This document shows, one piece after another, positions 17,265 to 24,330 of a stretch of DNA of 59,541 nt (positions are counted from its first letter, which is position 1; each line of letters begins with the position of its first letter). The DNA is from Dysosmobacter sp. (lineage in GTDB: Bacteria > Bacillota > Clostridia > Oscillospirales > Oscillospiraceae). The DNA lies in contig JAPFEH010000080.1 of NCBI GenBank assembly GCA_026169195.1, positions 1 to 59,541 of the forward strand, in the 5' to 3' direction. The notes below the pieces were generated by a model. It was not told the origin of the DNA. It worked only from the letters and a program-made list of their open reading frames with translations, and made no database searches. A program made the translations under genes and the position numbers.

Positions 17265-17275
17265 ATGCTCATACA

Positions 17276-17368
17276 ATTGTGCATCCCTACGTTGGCATTA
17301 TCCAAATCAGGTTTCAGGGTCGAAAGTCCTACTTTCCTCTCAGCCTGTTTTACAAGCTCCCCCGCTAT
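17276..17368 (-). ncRNA. TPP riboswitch (THI element)
   Basis: The minus strand carries the full THI-box pattern in order: GGGGAGC, ACAGGCTGAGAGGAAAGTAGG, ACCCTGAAACCTGAT, then GGATAATGCCAACGTAGGGA. The CTGAGA and the ACCTGATCTGGATAATGCC-like block form the pyrimidine and pyrophosphate sensor arms. It controls the thiamine salvage operon through the downstream hairpin. Confidence 0.97.
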
Positions 17369-17381
17369 TCACTTGTCGGAG

Positions 17382-20300
17382 TCATTGTACTCCCTCGGTC
17401 TCGCGATTGCAAGTATTTTTTCTTCTTTTTTTCAAAATCAGCACTGCAAGGCCGCACACCAGTACAAGGGCCGCAATTACCCAGACGCCCGCCGCAGACT
17501 CTGCCTTTACCAGACAGATTTCCGCCGCGTCTGCCGAAAGCTCTACCCGCAGATAGCGTCCCTCCTGCGTCTCAGGCAGGCGCTGCCAGTTTCCGCCTTC
17601 CATCCGGTACCACAGCTCCGCCTTTCGCACATCGTCCGGCTGCCGGACTCTCAGCGCGGTAAATCCGGCGTTTCCATTGATCTGAACCATGCGGTGCAGC
17701 AGCATTTCTTTTCCTGCCGGTCCTTCGCCATCCGCCGCGGAAACTGAAAGCACCGCGTCCGGCGCGAAGGTTCCTTCCGCCAGAATCAATCCGCTTTCAT
17801 CCGACAGGGTCGTGACCCACGGTGTATAGACTGCCTTGATTTTCTCATCAAAGGTCAGCGCCGTCCGGTCAAATTCCTCCCACGCTCCATGGAATCCCTC
17901 TTTCTCCGGAACAGCCGGAATCGCCTCTTCGGAAATTCCATGTCCATAAACAAAGGGAACCTCCTTTACAATCCGGTCTTCTGCCATGAATGTCAGGGAA
18001 AATACAGAAAATTCCCGCGGCGCTTCCGGTGCGATCAGTGTCTGATAGTCCACCGGCTCTGCCTGCCCGGAATAGCTGATGCCATCGACTCCACCCAGTT
18101 CTTCACTGACAAAGCAATTATCTTTCAGCGTTCCCTGCGCTTCACCGGCAAACGCGCCGCAGTACGGCACCTGCCCGCTCCGCACCAGAGCCCGGCATCC
18201 GGTCAAATCCTCCGCCGAACCCGCAATGCCGCCCACATAGCTTTCACCGGTCAGATCACATTTCGCCCAGCACTTCCGAAGGGGAACCGAGGAGCGTCCT
18301 GCAATTCCCCCCACATAGGAACCGCCGGTGCTTTCTGCGCTTCCATACCCTTCACACCCAAGGACTGCACCAACCTCAGCCTTGCCGACCACACTGCCGA
18401 CACAGTCTTTCCGTCCGGTCACCGCCCCATGGTTGACACTGTCCCGCAGCACCGCATGGGTCAAATACTGGAAATCAGCAGACAGGTCTCCATCCTGACT
18501 GATATCGTCCTCAGGGTCAAAATCCAGTTCCACCGCCATGGAGCCTGTCACACCGCCGGTGTTGACATCGCCCTCCACGGTTCCGCGGTTGCTGCAATCC
18601 GCAGCTGTCCCCATGGTGATAGAATCATCCTCCTCTGAAGTATCCACCACCCGGTCCTGATCTTCTTCACCGCTGTCCCGCAGCAGGTTGGAGATCACGC
18701 TAAACTGATTGTTGACCCGCCGCAGCGATCCGCTCAAGGTATCGCCGGCAGTGTCAACCGTAGAATGCATGGACCTCAACTCCTGCGAGAGCTGGTCGAA
18801 TGTGGCGCTGAGGCTGTCTTCCTTTTCGTGAAACGCACTGTCCAGTTTTGGAAATTCCAGAGTCGGCTCATCTGCCTGTTCCTCCAGCAGATCTTTCAGT
18901 TCTCCCAGCGCATCCGTGATCAATGCCGCGCTGTCTGCCATGGCGCTCAGTGCCTTTTTGAAGGACTTGCTGCCGTCTCCGGCTTCACCCAGCGCCTCTG
19001 CCAGACTCTCTCCGGCATCCCGAAGATACCGCAGGGCATCTCCGAAAGACCTGCCGGATTGAAACAGTTTCCCAACCGCTTCTCCCAGCATCTTCCACGC
19101 TTTTTTCAGCGCTTCCTGATTTTGCATGTTTTCTCCGGCCAGCGCTTCCTTCAAAAGCGTTATGGCATTCTGAACATCACCGTTCAAAATCTCCGCCATG
19201 GCCGCCAGCGCTTCCCGCACCTGTGCAAGCTCCTCCTGAACCTGCGCATCATCCCAGTTCCAGTCCGGCAGCTGCTCAAGCCCGCCTAAGGCATCCATCA
19301 AATCCCCTACGGCTCCGGCTGTTGTTCCCAAAGCCTTTCCCAGCTTGAAAAGGGCGGATGCCAGCTGCACCAAAGCAGCCCGCGTTTCCTCGCTCAGTCC
19401 CACAGATCCCCGCAGCAGTTCCAGTGCCTCGGATACATCAGCCGCGGCATCCCTGATCTGGCCATTGGCCTGTCTCAAGGCCTCCATGGCTTTGCTGAAC
19501 GCACGCAGGGCTTCCGAACCGGGACCGCCGGCTTCCTCCAATGATTCCACGGTCTCTTCCAAGCGGGAAAGCGCTGTATCCAGCTTTCCGGTTCCCCGCT
19601 CCAAATTTTCTACAACCGGCACCGCATCATCCAGCACTCTGGAAATTCTGGCGCTGAGGTCGTTGACTGTATCTATGGTGCCATCTCCCAGATTCTCCAG
19701 ATCCTCCAGCAGACCGCTCACGTCTCCCCGTGCGCTGTCTGTCAGGTCTCCGATGGCTGTCAAATGGCCGGACAGCTGCTTTCGGGACTGGTCCGTATGA
19801 TCCAGTGTATCCTCCATCAAGCCCCATAGCACCGACAGCTCCTCGCCCAGCTGCTGCAGGGTATCCTTCTGAAAGCGCAGCTGCGTATACGGCTCCATCT
19901 GTCCAATGATGCCGCCGACTTCTTTCCGGCCCTGAATGGTGCCGTGGTTGGTGCAGTCGGTGACATACCCTGCCTGCCGTCCTGCAATTCCCCCCACATT
20001 ATAGCCGATATGGGGATAACCGACTTCACCAAAGTTCACACAGCCACGCAGCACGCCTTTGGAATATCCCGCGATCCCGCCGGTATCAGTACAGGCCGGG
20101 ATATTTTCCGTACTGTTCAGTTTGCTCCAGTCAATGTCATCCAGTTCCGGAGAGATCTCCCCGCTGCGGGTATTGACGGATGCCTGATTGGTACATTGGA
20201 TCACGCTGCCATAGTTTTCTCCCGCCACGCCTCCGGTAAAGTGCTCTCCTGAGACCACTCCGGAAACGGAACAGTTGATGATCTCTCCGGCAGCCTCATT

Positions 20301-20792
20301 GATTCCCGCAATCCCGCCTGTGCGGTCCGGTGCATCCACAACGCCGCTGAAACTGCACTGCGCAATGGTCCCGCGGTTGACTCCGGCGATTCCGCCGAAG
20401 CCTTTTCCGTTTCCTGATACGCTGACCGCTCCGGATACATTCAGGTTCTTTACGACGGCGCCTTCCTGAACATAGCGGAACAATCCGAAATGAGAGCCTG
20501 CTGCCTCCAGCCTCCATCCCCGGATCGTATGTCCCTGTCCATTAAAGGTTCCCCCGAACGTAGGAATTTCTGTTTCTCCTGTCAGGTCCAGATCACAGTC
20601 CAGCACAACGGTCTTTTCTTGCGACCACGTATCCAGACGGCAGTCACGCGCCAGTTTCTTCCAGTCTTCCACGGAGCGGATATGGATCACTCCGTCCGCC
20701 GCCAGAGCGCAGGGCGCCAGACAGCCTGCCAGCAGACAGAGACTCAGCATCCCCGCTGTCAGACGGCGCAAATGCTTATGGATTTGTTTCAC
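17382..20792 (-). CDS. large surface-anchored GLUG-repeat protein with central helical stalk
   Basis: A 1136-residue protein, not assignable to a named function. A signal peptide (residues about 1-32) precedes a beta-solenoid block with many GLUG-type repeats such as GGIAGVNRGTIAQCS and GGIAGYSKG (about 110-320). Residues about 330-740 are strongly helical and rich in Leu, Glu and Ala, with long heptad-like stretches. A second GLUG block follows (about 750-930), then Ig-like beta sequence, then one membrane helix (about 1102-1124) and a basic tail LKKRRKN. GTG 20792 has GGAGG upstream and overlaps the RND gene by 17 bases, so the two are made together. A stalk or adaptor for the transporter is an inference. 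Confidence 0.85.
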   Translation of the reverse strand: MKQIHKHLRRLTAGMLSLCLLAGCLAPCALAADGVIHIRSVEDWKKLARDCRLDTWSQEKTVVLDCDLDLTGETEIPTFGGTFNGQGHTIRGWRLEAAGSHFGLFRYVQEGAVVKNLNVSGAVSVSGNGKGFGGIAGVNRGTIAQCSFSGVVDAPDRTGGIAGINEAAGEIINCSVSGVVSGEHFTGGVAGENYGSVIQCTNQASVNTRSGEISPELDDIDWSKLNSTENIPACTDTGGIAGYSKGVLRGCVNFGEVGYPHIGYNVGGIAGRQAGYVTDCTNHGTIQGRKEVGGIIGQMEPYTQLRFQKDTLQQLGEELSVLWGLMEDTLDHTDQSRKQLSGHLTAIGDLTDSARGDVSGLLEDLENLGDGTIDTVNDLSARISRVLDDAVPVVENLERGTGKLDTALSRLEETVESLEEAGGPGSEALRAFSKAMEALRQANGQIRDAAADVSEALELLRGSVGLSEETRAALVQLASALFKLGKALGTTAGAVGDLMDALGGLEQLPDWNWDDAQVQEELAQVREALAAMAEILNGDVQNAITLLKEALAGENMQNQEALKKAWKMLGEAVGKLFQSGRSFGDALRYLRDAGESLAEALGEAGDGSKSFKKALSAMADSAALITDALGELKDLLEEQADEPTLEFPKLDSAFHEKEDSLSATFDQLSQELRSMHSTVDTAGDTLSGSLRRVNNQFSVISNLLRDSGEEDQDRVVDTSEEDDSITMGTAADCSNRGTVEGDVNTGGVTGSMAVELDFDPEDDISQDGDLSADFQYLTHAVLRDSVNHGAVTGRKDCVGSVVGKAEVGAVLGCEGYGSAESTGGSYVGGIAGRSSVPLRKCWAKCDLTGESYVGGIAGSAEDLTGCRALVRSGQVPYCGAFAGEAQGTLKDNCFVSEELGGVDGISYSGQAEPVDYQTLIAPEAPREFSVFSLTFMAEDRIVKEVPFVYGHGISEEAIPAVPEKEGFHGAWEEFDRTALTFDEKIKAVYTPWVTTLSDESGLILAEGTFAPDAVLSVSAADGEGPAGKEMLLHRMVQINGNAGFTALRVRQPDDVRKAELWYRMEGGNWQRLPETQEGRYLRVELSADAAEICLVKAESAAGVWVIAALVLVCGLAVLILKKRRKNTCNRETEGVQ
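17384..17412 (-). promoter_or_regulatory. promoter of the thiamine operon
   Basis: Minus-strand TTGCAA (17407-17412), 17-base spacer and TACAAT (17384-17389). It lies inside the last codons of the upstream surface-protein gene; the predicted start point is a few bases before the TPP aptamer. Confidence 0.75.
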
Positions 20793-23241
20793 GGGGAACC
20801 ACCTCCTCTGTCTGTTCTTTCACAACTCCCGTGTCTACCACAGCAGACAAGGTTCCATGGATGACACCGGTCATCTCTGCATCTACCACACCGTTGATAT
20901 ATCCGCGGACGCGTCCATGCACCGCCATGCTGCCCTGCCGCTCCGTGCGCTGCGGCAGCGGCACCTTCAGCGCGAAGGCAGTCTTTTCGATAATGGTATC
21001 TCCCAGCAGCAGGATCTGCGGGAGCACGCCCATGACCAGCAGCATGGAAATCAGAGTTCCGCGTCCCAGACATTCCCCGATCGCCGTAATGGCTGCCTCC
21101 GAGGTCAGGAAATAAATCAAAGTACCTGCCGCCGCCAGAATGCTGCCGGAGGTCACAATGGTAGGAAATGCAAGGTTCAGCGATTCTATCACAGCCTCTC
21201 GGCAGCTCATACGCTGTTTCAGTTCCATATACCGGCTGGAAATCACAATGGCATAGTCGATGTTGGCACCCATCTGGATGGAGCTGACGATCAAGTAGCT
21301 CATGAAAAACAGGTTCTTTTCCATCAAATAGGGGAACGAGAAGTTGATCCAGATACTGCCTTGAATCACCAGAATCAGCAGCACCGGCAGTCCTGCGGAC
21401 CGGAAGGTAAAAATCAGCACGATGATCACAAACAGCGCGGAAAGCACACTGATCAGGACATTGTCCCCCTCAAAAGACGATGCCAGATCATAATCGCTGG
21501 TGGAATTTCCAACCAGATATACCTGATCGTAGTACCGTTCTCCGATTTCATGGAGCGTGCCCAGATAGTCAAAGGTCTCCTGACTCTCCTCTGGAAGATT
21601 CAGATACACCAGAAAACGGCTGTAATGCTCTCCCGCCAGCTGCGCTTTGGCATCCGTCAGCTGCTGATACATATCATCCAGATCTTCCGCCATGTCCCCT
21701 TCCAGCGTGATGTACCCTTCCTCCTTTTGCTCATAAAGGAAATCGACCATATCAATGAGAGGAATGCTGTATTGGTCCAAATTGTTGACAATGTGCCCAT
21801 AGTCCTCCTGATCCGCGGCATAGGCACCATACAGCAGTTTGACCACTTCATAATCCATATTCAGGGTTTCCGCCAGCTGACGCGGCGTCAGGGCGTCCGT
21901 CAGCATATATCCGTCCATGGCTTCAACGTTGCCAAGGCCCAATGTACTTTTCACCTGCGGCTGCCGCTCCAGTTCCGCCAGCAGAGCCTGCTCTTTTTCA
22001 TAATCTCCAGCCGGCACCAGCATCGCCATCATATTGGTGCCGCCAAAGGTCTCCCGAATCGTCTGCTCGGCGATCTGATTGTCACTCTGCTTGAAGGTTG
22101 TCAAGGTCGAATAACCGTAAACGTAGGGGCAGCGGTTGGACAGCAGGAAAGACACCACCAGCACCACCAAAAAAATCGGCGGCACAAGGTAGCGGCTTTT
22201 GACCACCAGTTTTCCCCATGCGGTGATTTTGGGAACAAAGCTTTTATGCTGAGTCTTATCCATCCATTTGGAAAAGAGCATCAAAAGTCCCGGCATCAGG
22301 GTAAACACAGACAACAGGCTGAAGAAAATTGCCTTAATCAGCACAATCCCCATATCGTAACCGATCCGGAACCGCATAAATGTCATGGCAACCAGACCCG
22401 AAATGGTGGTAAGGCTGGAACCTGCGATCTCCGGAATCGATTTGCTCAATGCCGCAATGCAGGCTTCCCGCGCCTGCCGGCATTCCCGTTCCTCCGTAAA
22501 GCGATGGCACAGAATGATGGCATAGTCAATTGCAAGCGCCAGCTGCAGCACCACCGCCACCGATTTTGTGATAAAAGAAATCTCACCCAGCAGATAGTTG
22601 GTTCCCATGTTCAGCAGGGCAGCTACACCGAATGTCAGCATCAGCACGGGAATTTCCATATAAGTTTTGGATGTAAACAGCAATACCAGCAGAATGATGG
22701 CCACTGCCACCAGCATGACGATTTTCATTTCTCCGCCGATCGTATCGTTGATATCGCTGCCTACCTCACTGCTGATATAAAAATCAAAATCGCTCAGGCT
22801 CTGCCGCAGCCCCTCCATGGCAGTATTGCAGATCTCATCTCCGTTTTCACCGTCAAACGTCACACTGAACAGGGCCGCTGCCCCCCGATAGTACTCCGTC
22901 AAATCGGCATCTTCCTGTTCAGGGTCATAAAAATCCACAGAGGTCACGCCCTCAACGTTCTCCAATACCTCCTGCAAAGCCAAGGCACGGTCCAGCGTAA
23001 TATTGTCCACCATAACCTGCGCTGTGGCATATGTAGTAAATTCCTCTTCCATCAGTGTCAAACCTTGACGGGTTTCCGTCTCGGCGGGCAAATAGTCCGT
23101 CAGGTCACTGTTGGTCTGCACCCATCCGGAGGCAATCACGCAAAATATACATGCCGCCAAAAAAAACAGGAAGAAGATGTTGCGCTTATCCACAATAAAT
23201 GTGGCGATCTTCTCCCAGAAAGTCTGTTGTTTTGTTTCCAT
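20776..23241 (-). CDS. MMPL/RND-family transporter
   Basis: An 821-residue membrane protein with the two-fold RND layout: a first transmembrane helix, an external domain, five or six helices, then the same again from about residue 355. The core segments with conserved acidic and glycine residues are QLALAIDYAIILCHRF and SIQMGANIDYAIVISSRY. Family members export lipids, siderophores or drugs using the proton gradient; the substrate here is unknown. The C-terminal tail after the last helix is unusual, a short beta repeat (VHGRVRGYINGVV, then MTGVIHGTL). ATG 23241 has GGAG eight bases upstream. Confidence 0.9.
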   Translation of the reverse strand: METKQQTFWEKIATFIVDKRNIFFLFFLAACIFCVIASGWVQTNSDLTDYLPAETETRQGLTLMEEEFTTYATAQVMVDNITLDRALALQEVLENVEGVTSVDFYDPEQEDADLTEYYRGAAALFSVTFDGENGDEICNTAMEGLRQSLSDFDFYISSEVGSDINDTIGGEMKIVMLVAVAIILLVLLFTSKTYMEIPVLMLTFGVAALLNMGTNYLLGEISFITKSVAVVLQLALAIDYAIILCHRFTEERECRQAREACIAALSKSIPEIAGSSLTTISGLVAMTFMRFRIGYDMGIVLIKAIFFSLLSVFTLMPGLLMLFSKWMDKTQHKSFVPKITAWGKLVVKSRYLVPPIFLVVLVVSFLLSNRCPYVYGYSTLTTFKQSDNQIAEQTIRETFGGTNMMAMLVPAGDYEKEQALLAELERQPQVKSTLGLGNVEAMDGYMLTDALTPRQLAETLNMDYEVVKLLYGAYAADQEDYGHIVNNLDQYSIPLIDMVDFLYEQKEEGYITLEGDMAEDLDDMYQQLTDAKAQLAGEHYSRFLVYLNLPEESQETFDYLGTLHEIGERYYDQVYLVGNSTSDYDLASSFEGDNVLISVLSALFVIIVLIFTFRSAGLPVLLILVIQGSIWINFSFPYLMEKNLFFMSYLIVSSIQMGANIDYAIVISSRYMELKQRMSCREAVIESLNLAFPTIVTSGSILAAAGTLIYFLTSEAAITAIGECLGRGTLISMLLVMGVLPQILLLGDTIIEKTAFALKVPLPQRTERQGSMAVHGRVRGYINGVVDAEMTGVIHGTLSAVVDTGVVKEQTEEVVPRETNP

Positions 23242-23246
23242 ACCCT

Positions 23247-23537
23247 TCACTCCGTCCCGTCTGCACGCGATCCCGTCAGGCGCATATCTCCCTTTCCTGT
23301 ATGGACCATGCTGTCAAAGGCTCCCTTCCGAATGACCAGTTCCGCCCGCAGTTCAATCTTTCCCATGACAGAGTCCATCTGTCCCGTGAGGCGAATACGC
23401 TCTGCATCCAGCCTTTCCGCCTTTAACGGACTGCGGAACCCCAGCAGTTCCACGACTGCGCGGCCATCCCCCGAAAGCTCCAGCGTTCCCCGGCGGGGCC
23501 CCATCGGACTGTGCAGGGTAATTTGATACCGCTCCAT
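23247..23537 (-). CDS. small beta-rich protein of unknown family, first gene of the RND cassette
   Basis: A 96-residue soluble protein without signal peptide or cysteines. Short alternating hydrophobic stretches (YQITLHSPMG, GTLELSGDGRAVVELLG, RIRLTGQMDSVMGKIELRAELVI) suggest an all-beta fold. I do not recognise the family. ATG 23537 is favoured because GAGGAGG lies seven bases upstream; the ATG six bases earlier is too close. It ends six bases before the RND start, so a role with the transporter is likely. Confidence 0.7.
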   Translation of the reverse strand: MERYQITLHSPMGPRRGTLELSGDGRAVVELLGFRSPLKAERLDAERIRLTGQMDSVMGKIELRAELVIRKGAFDSMVHTGKGDMRLTGSRADGTE

Positions 23538-23691
23538 ATCCATACCTCCTCATAATCAAATTTAATATACGCACAAATCCTCACTTTTTCCATAGACAAT
23601 CCGGCTGCATTTGTCGCATTATCCGGAACTTCACAAAAAATTTACAGTTCCCCCTTTCACAGTCTGTTATACTGGCACTTGAGGTGATATC

Positions 23692-24330
23692 ATGGAGGAC
23701 TCCATCCGCGCTGACCAGACAAAACATCTTCTAACAGACTCTCTGAAGCGGTTGATGGCGCAAAAGCCACTGAATAAAATATCAATCCGTGAAATCACAG
23801 AAGGCTGCGGGGTCAACCGCCAGACCTTTTATTATCATTTTGAGGATATTTACGATCAAATCCGCTGGATGTACCGTCAGGAAGCCCTGAAGCTTCTGGA
23901 CCAGCAGGAAGGCGTTTTGGTCTGGCAGGATGGCTTGCTGCAGCTGTTCCATTATCTGGAGGAAAATTATGCTGTCTGCCGGTGCGTCCTGCATTCGATG
24001 GGGCATGAACATCTGCGCAGCTTTTTTAAGACTGACATCTACGAAATCGTTCATAAGGTCATCCAATATATGACGTCAGACCTGAATATCTGTGAAACAG
24101 AAAAAGATATCCTGACTCATTTTTACGTCTCCGCCCTGTCCGGAATTGTGGAAAACTGGCTGATGGGAGAGCTTCCTTATACACCGGAAACGCTGGTCAG
24201 CACCGCAGACCGCATCATTCAGGCCCATTTGCTCGGCGCTTTATCAGCCCCCCCTCAGCCGCCGGACAAAGGAACTCCTCCCAACCAAGAACTTCATCAT
24301 AAACGCAAAAACTCCGCTGCACCAAAATAG
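23692..24330 (+). CDS. TetR family regulator, DhaS-like
   Basis: A 212-residue regulator with a clear TetR DNA-binding head: LTDSLKRLMAQKPLNKISIREITEGCGVNRQTFYYHFEDIYD read in segments, with YYHF in the recognition helix. The C-terminal half is of the short DhaS-like type often found beside transport genes. It is transcribed away from the small protein-RND-GLUG operon, separated by about 150 bases, so it probably represses that operon. GAGGTGATATC precedes the ATG. The tail (about 25 residues) is proline- and lysine-rich and its last codons form half of a terminator stem. Confidence 0.9.
   Translation: MEDSIRADQTKHLLTDSLKRLMAQKPLNKISIREITEGCGVNRQTFYYHFEDIYDQIRWMYRQEALKLLDQQEGVLVWQDGLLQLFHYLEENYAVCRCVLHSMGHEHLRSFFKTDIYEIVHKVIQYMTSDLNICETEKDILTHFYVSALSGIVENWLMGELPYTPETLVSTADRIIQAHLLGALSAPPQPPDKGTPPNQELHHKRKNSAAPK

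Follow-up and report, generated by a model that had tools for sequence, protein, structure and literature searches.

Why would a bacterium that appears to lack an outer membrane keep a resistance-nodulation-division (RND) transporter together with a secreted, membrane-anchored protein longer than the transporter itself? Most of what is understood about RND pumps comes from cells that have an outer membrane, in which their partners bridge two membranes; to our knowledge, the need of monoderm RND pumps for long extracytoplasmic parts has been little studied. The question is raised by a locus on contig JAPFEH010000080.1 of a Dysosmobacter sp. assembly (GCA_026169195.1), analysed here as one stretch of 59,541 nucleotides (nt), the window. 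Open reading frames (ORFs) and Pfam matches place on its reverse strand an MMPL/RND pump gene (20776–23250; 824 amino acids (aa), GTG start), followed by the gene for a GLUG-domain protein that we call the stalk (17382–20792; 1136 aa, GTG start). The ORF coordinates bear out the 17-nt overlap of the two genes (20776–20792) given in an initial annotation of this DNA, an arrangement that may reflect translational coupling. The same annotation took the cell to be without an outer membrane. Omp85 had no match in the genome of the window (95.6% complete; the control matched in 7 of 14) and two sortase matches were found, which is consistent with a monoderm cell; the outer membrane and outer-membrane factor of tripartite efflux were likewise not indicated, on the strength of the Omp85 search (TolC was not searched for).

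Pump and stalk form a near-obligate pair

Full-length relatives of these genes occur in many genomes, so the locus is not a chance set of ORFs. Among 40 genomes, namely that of the window and 39 relatives, several of them incomplete, 17 carried a close pump with a full or contig-cut stalk and 23 carried neither, the matches in the latter being GLUG-only proteins or more distant pumps. All 17 further pump loci of the genus led into a stalk. In a sample of the order (295 genomes), the pump profile matched in 98 genomes at E≤1e-40; the 22 genomes (23 loci, the window included) that reached at least 897 bits all had an adjoining stalk, and a stalk search (E≤1e-30) returned the same 22 plus three genomes with N-terminal GLUG matches only. 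In a sample of the class (391 genomes), the pump was found at E≤1e-150 in 45 genomes and the stalk at E≤1e-60 in 31, all within the 45, with adjacency in most of the 31 read from coordinates only. Fifteen loci were fetched for the 14 apparent exceptions, and a divergent stalk lay directly downstream in 14 of them; L242 runs off its contig, and its genome has another pump with a stalk (L243). Taking both samples, which share the genome of the window and G102, a pump at E≤1e-150 was accompanied by a stalk in 65 of 68 genomes, and the module is present in 15 families of the class sample.

The pairing also appeared when the stalk alone was used as the query (tblastn, E≤1e-3). The best 80 of at least 565 matching stretches, among which other GLUG proteins may be included, came from records whose titles include Oscillibacter, Flavonifractor, Evtepia, Anaerotignum, Acidaminobacter and Dielma. 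A pump match lay upstream in 79 of these 80 loci, the 80th having 17 nt of upstream sequence; the distance from the pump to the first matched stalk residue was within 200 nt in 72 loci and 202–713 nt in six, and one was a run-on. A filter on score and N terminus was passed by 118 of 120 stalk loci, giving, with the window, 109 distinct sequences. Every one of them had a pump upstream, and the genes overlapped by 1–41 nt in 102 (start codons picked by script), while of the remaining seven, two had an offset of +1 and another of +16, three fell between +118 and +695, and in the last the frame ran on. The pump and stalk trees are partly congruent: 44 of 102 splits were shared, and the stalk tree recovered 32 of 52 well-supported pump splits, against 31 of 64 for the reverse comparison. 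Pump and stalk are a real, widespread and near-obligate two-component module.

The two genes are even found as a single open frame of 1916–2016 aa in four genomes of one genus, and in a fifth genome such a frame is cut by the contig end (L226–L230 together). The junction retains a signal-peptide-like stretch and an AxA-type site, so signal peptidase may cut the product, which would still yield the two parts one to one. In L045/L175, the frame of the pump continues past the start of the stalk to a length of 1138 aa, possibly through a frame error in the assembly.

The initial annotation had described three coupled genes, the third encoding a small beta protein, reading away from a TetR regulator, and held that free separation of the genes in related genomes would speak against its proposal. 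For pump and stalk, the counts above point the other way. All four ORFs were located, but, counting repeats, the small gene was found in 17 of the 120 loci with pump and stalk, and the conserved unit is the pump with the stalk, not the three-gene-plus-TetR layout.

The pump and the helical part of the stalk

The pump matches Pfam MMPL (PF03176) in two stretches, at 160.1 bits against a cut-off of 20.5 (E 8.9e-47), while it stays under the cut-offs of the NCBIfam RND models (HAE3 TIGR00921, 121.6 vs 351.9 bits; actII TIGR00833, 148.8 vs 874.7 bits). A simple hydropathy scan separated nine peaks and two large loops, set against the 12 transmembrane helices looked for. Each half holds an Asp-Tyr pair (D242-Y243 in AIDYAI and D665-Y666 in NIDYAI), a relay whose role is known from MmpL3. 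Among the 109 stalk-linked pump entries that could be scored (counting repeats; ten partial entries were left unscored), 105 have both pairs; three entries have lost both and one has Asn-Tyr in the second. The solved structures nearest by sequence are MmpL5 and MmpL4. The long coiled-coil insertion that MmpL5 has in its second loop was not found in the window pump, whose second extracytoplasmic loop (about residues 373–597, ~225 residues) carries a single helical unit of 78 aa; here the coiled-coil-like part belongs to another protein. The pump also has a cytoplasmic tail; the tail (20821–20934) has a G-x-V-x-G pattern, seen in 14 of 17 aligned pumps, which is reminiscent of short beta-helix proteins such as bactofilins.

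The domains of the stalk were delimited by sequence and by an AlphaFold model built on 57 sequences (mean predicted local distance difference test (pLDDT) 83.2; predicted template modelling score 0.60), read as secondary structure and confidence rather than as coordinates. A hydrophobic N-terminal signal peptide, a signal helix in the model, precedes a first GLUG part (about residues 36–302), the helical part (303–715, 413 residues; model helices 309–709 with a break or turn at 508–514), a second GLUG part (about 716–925), a further beta domain (about 926–1097) and a C-terminal transmembrane helix (1101–1122 in the model, a hydrophobic stretch at 1102–1120 by hydropathy); in the model, the GLUG parts are beta-rich and the further domain forms a second beta block. 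Pfam Glug (PF07581) scores 21.3 bits, just over its cut-off of 20.5, and the coiled-coil-type Pfam matches between the GLUG parts are all below cut-off. The 19 Pfam and 23 NCBIfam families listed at E≤1 for the stalk include no periplasmic adaptor of the HlyD/AcrA type. Matches to MCE, SMC, Zorya and the small subunit of exonuclease VII, all under the family cut-offs, were set aside as composition matches, as were myosin- and tape-measure-type matches in the PDB. A lipoprotein was also considered, given an LAGC motif in the signal sequence, but the cysteine is not conserved among relatives. The stalks of L087 and L100 have ~400–500 extra residues behind the transmembrane anchor, with a further hydrophobic stretch.

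In an alignment of 113 stalks (the window and 112 relatives, repeats included), mean conservation was 0.62 and 0.59 in the GLUG parts and 0.34 in the helical part, whose length lies between 135 and 684 residues, with a median of 407 and a value of 413 in the window. Heptad periodicity in the helical part reached 5.9, against 1.0 after shuffling. The indels of the alignment cluster at 463–582, the central prolines were selected with a bias towards the centre, and the conservation profile across the stalk is V-shaped, as it is in the other coiled-coil partner family described below; alone, this shape is weak evidence, because it tends to arise wherever conserved domains are joined by a variable linker. 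Covariation between the helical flanks peaks on the antidiagonal i+j=1019–1025 with a z of 8.1, the maximum in 46 row permutations (6 + 40) being 4.1, although the test is lenient because permutation removes phylogeny. The AlphaFold model shows mirrored helix breaks around 508–514 (333–337/680–683, 421–425/601–604 and 464–466/553–558), with ten-residue means of pLDDT of 54–90 over residues 301–700 and 49 for 701–710. From this covariation and the breaks in the model, the helical part is probably an antiparallel hairpin that turns near residue 510. At 1.5 Å per residue, a straight arm of ~195–200 residues would be roughly 30 nm long. The long extracytoplasmic helical stalk of the initial annotation is supported by the heptads, the antidiagonal and the model.

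Helical extensions and the role of the stalk

We compared 40 further pump loci, picked by hand and including a paralogue from the genome of the window, using a home-made heuristic as coiled-coil score. Pumps without the 78-aa loop unit adjoined an ORF with a coiled-coil-like run of at least 50 residues in 26 of 29 cases; in the three exceptions, the run was 37 residues long (L212), the contig ended (L211) or there was none (L114). No coiled-coil neighbour was seen beside any of the six loop-expanded pumps (L115–L120, with insertions totalling 236–657 residues) or of the five intermediate ones. The loops of L116–L118 contain about nine tandem copies of a ~80-aa helical unit, as detected with a permissive iterated profile. 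A signal peptide was found in each of 27 partners, a biased count since start codons were picked by a score that rewards signal peptides. The locus of the paralogue (L049, 6980–11677 of contig C15) holds a second MMPL pump beside an 856-aa secreted coiled-coil-like protein with no family over cut-off. Homology between the GLUG stalk and the other coiled-coil partner was considered and rejected, as profile comparison aligned the signal peptides only. This distribution suggests that MMPL pumps can be given their helical extension by means that replace one another.

We propose that the module is a two-component monoderm exporter whose coiled-coil extension is supplied in trans and works like the built-in one of MmpL5, a reading to which we give about an even chance. 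The pump would be an MMPL/HAE3-like RND carrier, driven by protons as its motifs indicate, that takes a small and probably hydrophobic molecule from the membrane to its own extracytoplasmic domains. The stalk would be secreted by the Sec route and held by its C-terminal transmembrane helix, so placing the two GLUG beta domains near the membrane beside the pump, presumably touching it, and projecting the long antiparallel hairpin into the cell wall. It would thereby provide in trans what MmpL5 has in cis, and probably guide or shield the substrate through the wall, or fix the pump in it. Where a TetR gene is linked, with or without the small protein, the substrate probably induces expression.

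Several observations weigh against this proposal. The genomes G043, G100 and G154, all of one family, have pumps (L103–L105) that score 684–714 bits in the order sample (E between 5.5e-215 and 2.5e-206) without a stalk match at E≤1e-3 in the fetched locus; in L103 the genes behind the pump are on the opposite strand. The pumps of L106 (656 bits) and L107 (392 bits) are also without a stalk, and 73 further genomes of the 98 carry only weaker pump matches, which limits dependence on the stalk to the close pump group. Covariation between pump and stalk over 105 pairs gave no preferred block. In the single-frame form, the internal signal peptide and AxA site mean that the product may be cut, so that it demonstrates co-production, not fusion. 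For the hairpin, there is a secondary covariation peak at i+j 1036–1042 (z 6.1), the best parallel diagonal reaches 5.3, the permutations lean slightly to the same antidiagonal as the data, the helix break at 642–651 in the model has no mirror partner, and the model output fits a straight hairpin and a folded head alike. The wide range of helical lengths is odd for a part that spans a fixed wall, and in one clade the stalk is kept beside a pump without either Asp-Tyr pair. As a separate observation, the pump of L103 lies behind sporulation-type genes (SpoVAC/SpoVAD by inspection).

The clade without the Asp-Tyr pairs bears on what the stalk does. The three pumps concerned (L041, 6782–9064; L042, 9258–11537; L043, 2949–5219) form one clade of the genus and have also lost the conserved tail. 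The ratio of nonsynonymous to synonymous substitution rates (dN/dS) there is 0.17–0.20 for the pump and 0.05–0.09 for the stalk, whereas three ordinary comparisons within the genus show the opposite order (0.11–0.23 and 0.25–0.37, some with high dS). Pump and stalk of this clade are both under purifying selection, with the stalk more constrained, which is difficult to reconcile with decay and suggests that the relay-less pump has changed its role, possibly to one without transport. A partner retained under stronger constraint than such a pump would suit a hairpin protein that carries no substrate and either fastens the pump to the wall or gates it on sensing the substrate or the state of the envelope. 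Well-conserved GLUG ends on a helical part that varies in sequence and length fit the same role. By itself, however, it leaves unexplained why the loop-expanded pumps examined have no coiled-coil neighbour when most of those with a short loop do, and we consider it unlikely, if still a serious contender.

The reversed constraint would also fit a stalk that is itself the effector, a surface protein acting as an adhesin or binding a ligand, with a pump at its service, for instance to load it with a lipid or extract one. The RND relative Dispatched does such service for Hedgehog and is found among the weaker matches of the pump to solved structures. Equipped with a signal peptide and a transmembrane anchor of its own, the stalk should need no RND pump for its export, and the lipobox-like cysteine of the window stalk, as noted above, is not shared by its relatives; we find this explanation rather improbable. 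An ordinary drug-efflux pump whose neighbour is not part of the machine would agree with the TetR linkage, with MMPL membership and with the three fairly close pumps without a stalk (L103–L105), but it is disfavoured already by the near-obligate linkage, the gene overlap and the single-frame form, and we give it very little credence.

If the extension in trans is taken as the working reading, a wider proposal can be made, one that we hold tentatively and would sooner doubt than defend: monoderms would have their own wall-crossing class of RND systems with a separate anchored hairpin conduit, in which a GLUG-hairpin, an unrelated secreted coiled-coil partner or tandem loop expansion are interchangeable means of extension for Firmicute MMPL pumps, and in which one lineage has turned its pump, now without the relay, into a scaffold that serves the stalk. 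A conserved two-gene module in 15 families, together with its single-frame form and relay-less lineage, makes the question of RND pumps in monoderms testable, and would also hint at what many unannotated surface proteins with coiled coils or GLUG domains do in gut bacteria.

Neighbouring genes and known systems

Upstream of the pump gene, which it overlaps by 4 nt, lies the small beta-type gene (23247–23543, reverse strand, 98-aa ORF), followed by the divergent TetR-family regulator gene (23692–24330, forward strand, 212 aa; TetR_N and TetR_C_8 over cut-off). The initial annotation began the small gene at 23537; the longest ORF reaches 23543, but an internal ATG at 23537, 7 nt behind AGGAGG, is probably the true start. 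The small protein, of beta type by inspection, has no family in the Pfam and NCBIfam scans and no transmembrane peak by hydropathy, and it pairs with TetR; by these features it does not resemble an MmpS partner, which is a small protein with a transmembrane helix and an Ig-like domain. A divergent TetR gene lies beside it in 16 of its 17 module loci (two of these genes being split), the 17th having no room. Its homologues occur at six sites away from the module, and the five fetched (L221–L225) all adjoin a TetR gene and have no pump match. The small gene thus follows TetR and not the pump; a three-gene complex was rejected on this ground, and a part for the small protein in the pump is not supported. 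It is probably regulatory, and may be a regulator-associated protein that has not been described before. Aligning three sequences of the region between it and the TetR gene yielded nothing.

Across 109 loci, with labels other than that of the window TetR (Pfam) read from the sequences by inspection, TetR-type genes are the most recurrent neighbours (one cluster in 34 loci, another in 6), ABC-type genes occur in 20 and MATE-type genes in 10, in mixed positions, and a cluster of 13 loci looks like antisense frames. On the other side, a thiamine pyrophosphate riboswitch (17267–17372, reverse strand) comes directly behind the stalk gene and separates it from thiamine genes (thiW-type and hydroxyethylthiazole kinase). 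As these have a riboswitch of their own, the module probably ends with the stalk gene.

The initial annotation knew of no described system of this shape. In open-licence papers we found no published pairing of GLUG with MMPL, RND or other transporters, and wider searches on RND, MMPL and Gram-positive pumps listed none either; a functional parallel nevertheless exists in MmpL5. Partial resemblances are more numerous. FarE/FarR of Staphylococcus aureus, as far as excerpts describe it, likewise joins a Gram-positive RND pump to a TetR-family regulator, in inducible resistance to an antimicrobial fatty acid, but the openings of the abstracts mention no stalk partner for FarE and give no account of its loops or partners. 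The periplasmic adaptors of tripartite pumps are, in the excerpts at hand, pump partners with a long helical coiled coil too, but they join the pump to an outer-membrane channel, whereas here there is neither an adaptor family nor an Omp85 match. BstA-type sterol transporters, again according to excerpts, are RND transporters with dedicated extracytoplasmic proteins. BstA belongs to a methanotroph, a Gram-negative bacterium, and its periplasmic partners are soluble and sterol-binding; we know of no hairpin stalk there. The module may best be seen, from its sequences, as a variant of the RND theme, with a partner that could be conduit, anchor or sensor alike.

The closest comparison is with MmpS5-MmpL5. 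Excerpts of a study of MmpL5 from Mycobacterium tuberculosis describe its coiled coil as a 196-aa insertion in the second loop, predicted to form a 13 nm tube in the trimer and working with MmpS5, and report that its deletion abolishes efflux (PMC12501195). Compared with that account, the module has no MmpS-like transmembrane protein that we could see, its helical part is in a separate, larger, GLUG-flanked and anchored protein, and its cell looks monoderm. Both systems nonetheless have an MMPL-type RND pump, related by sequence at the level of the nearest solved structures, and an antiparallel coiled-coil extracytoplasmic extension, so that, by analogy, the mycobacterial MmpL5 offers a clear functional parallel.

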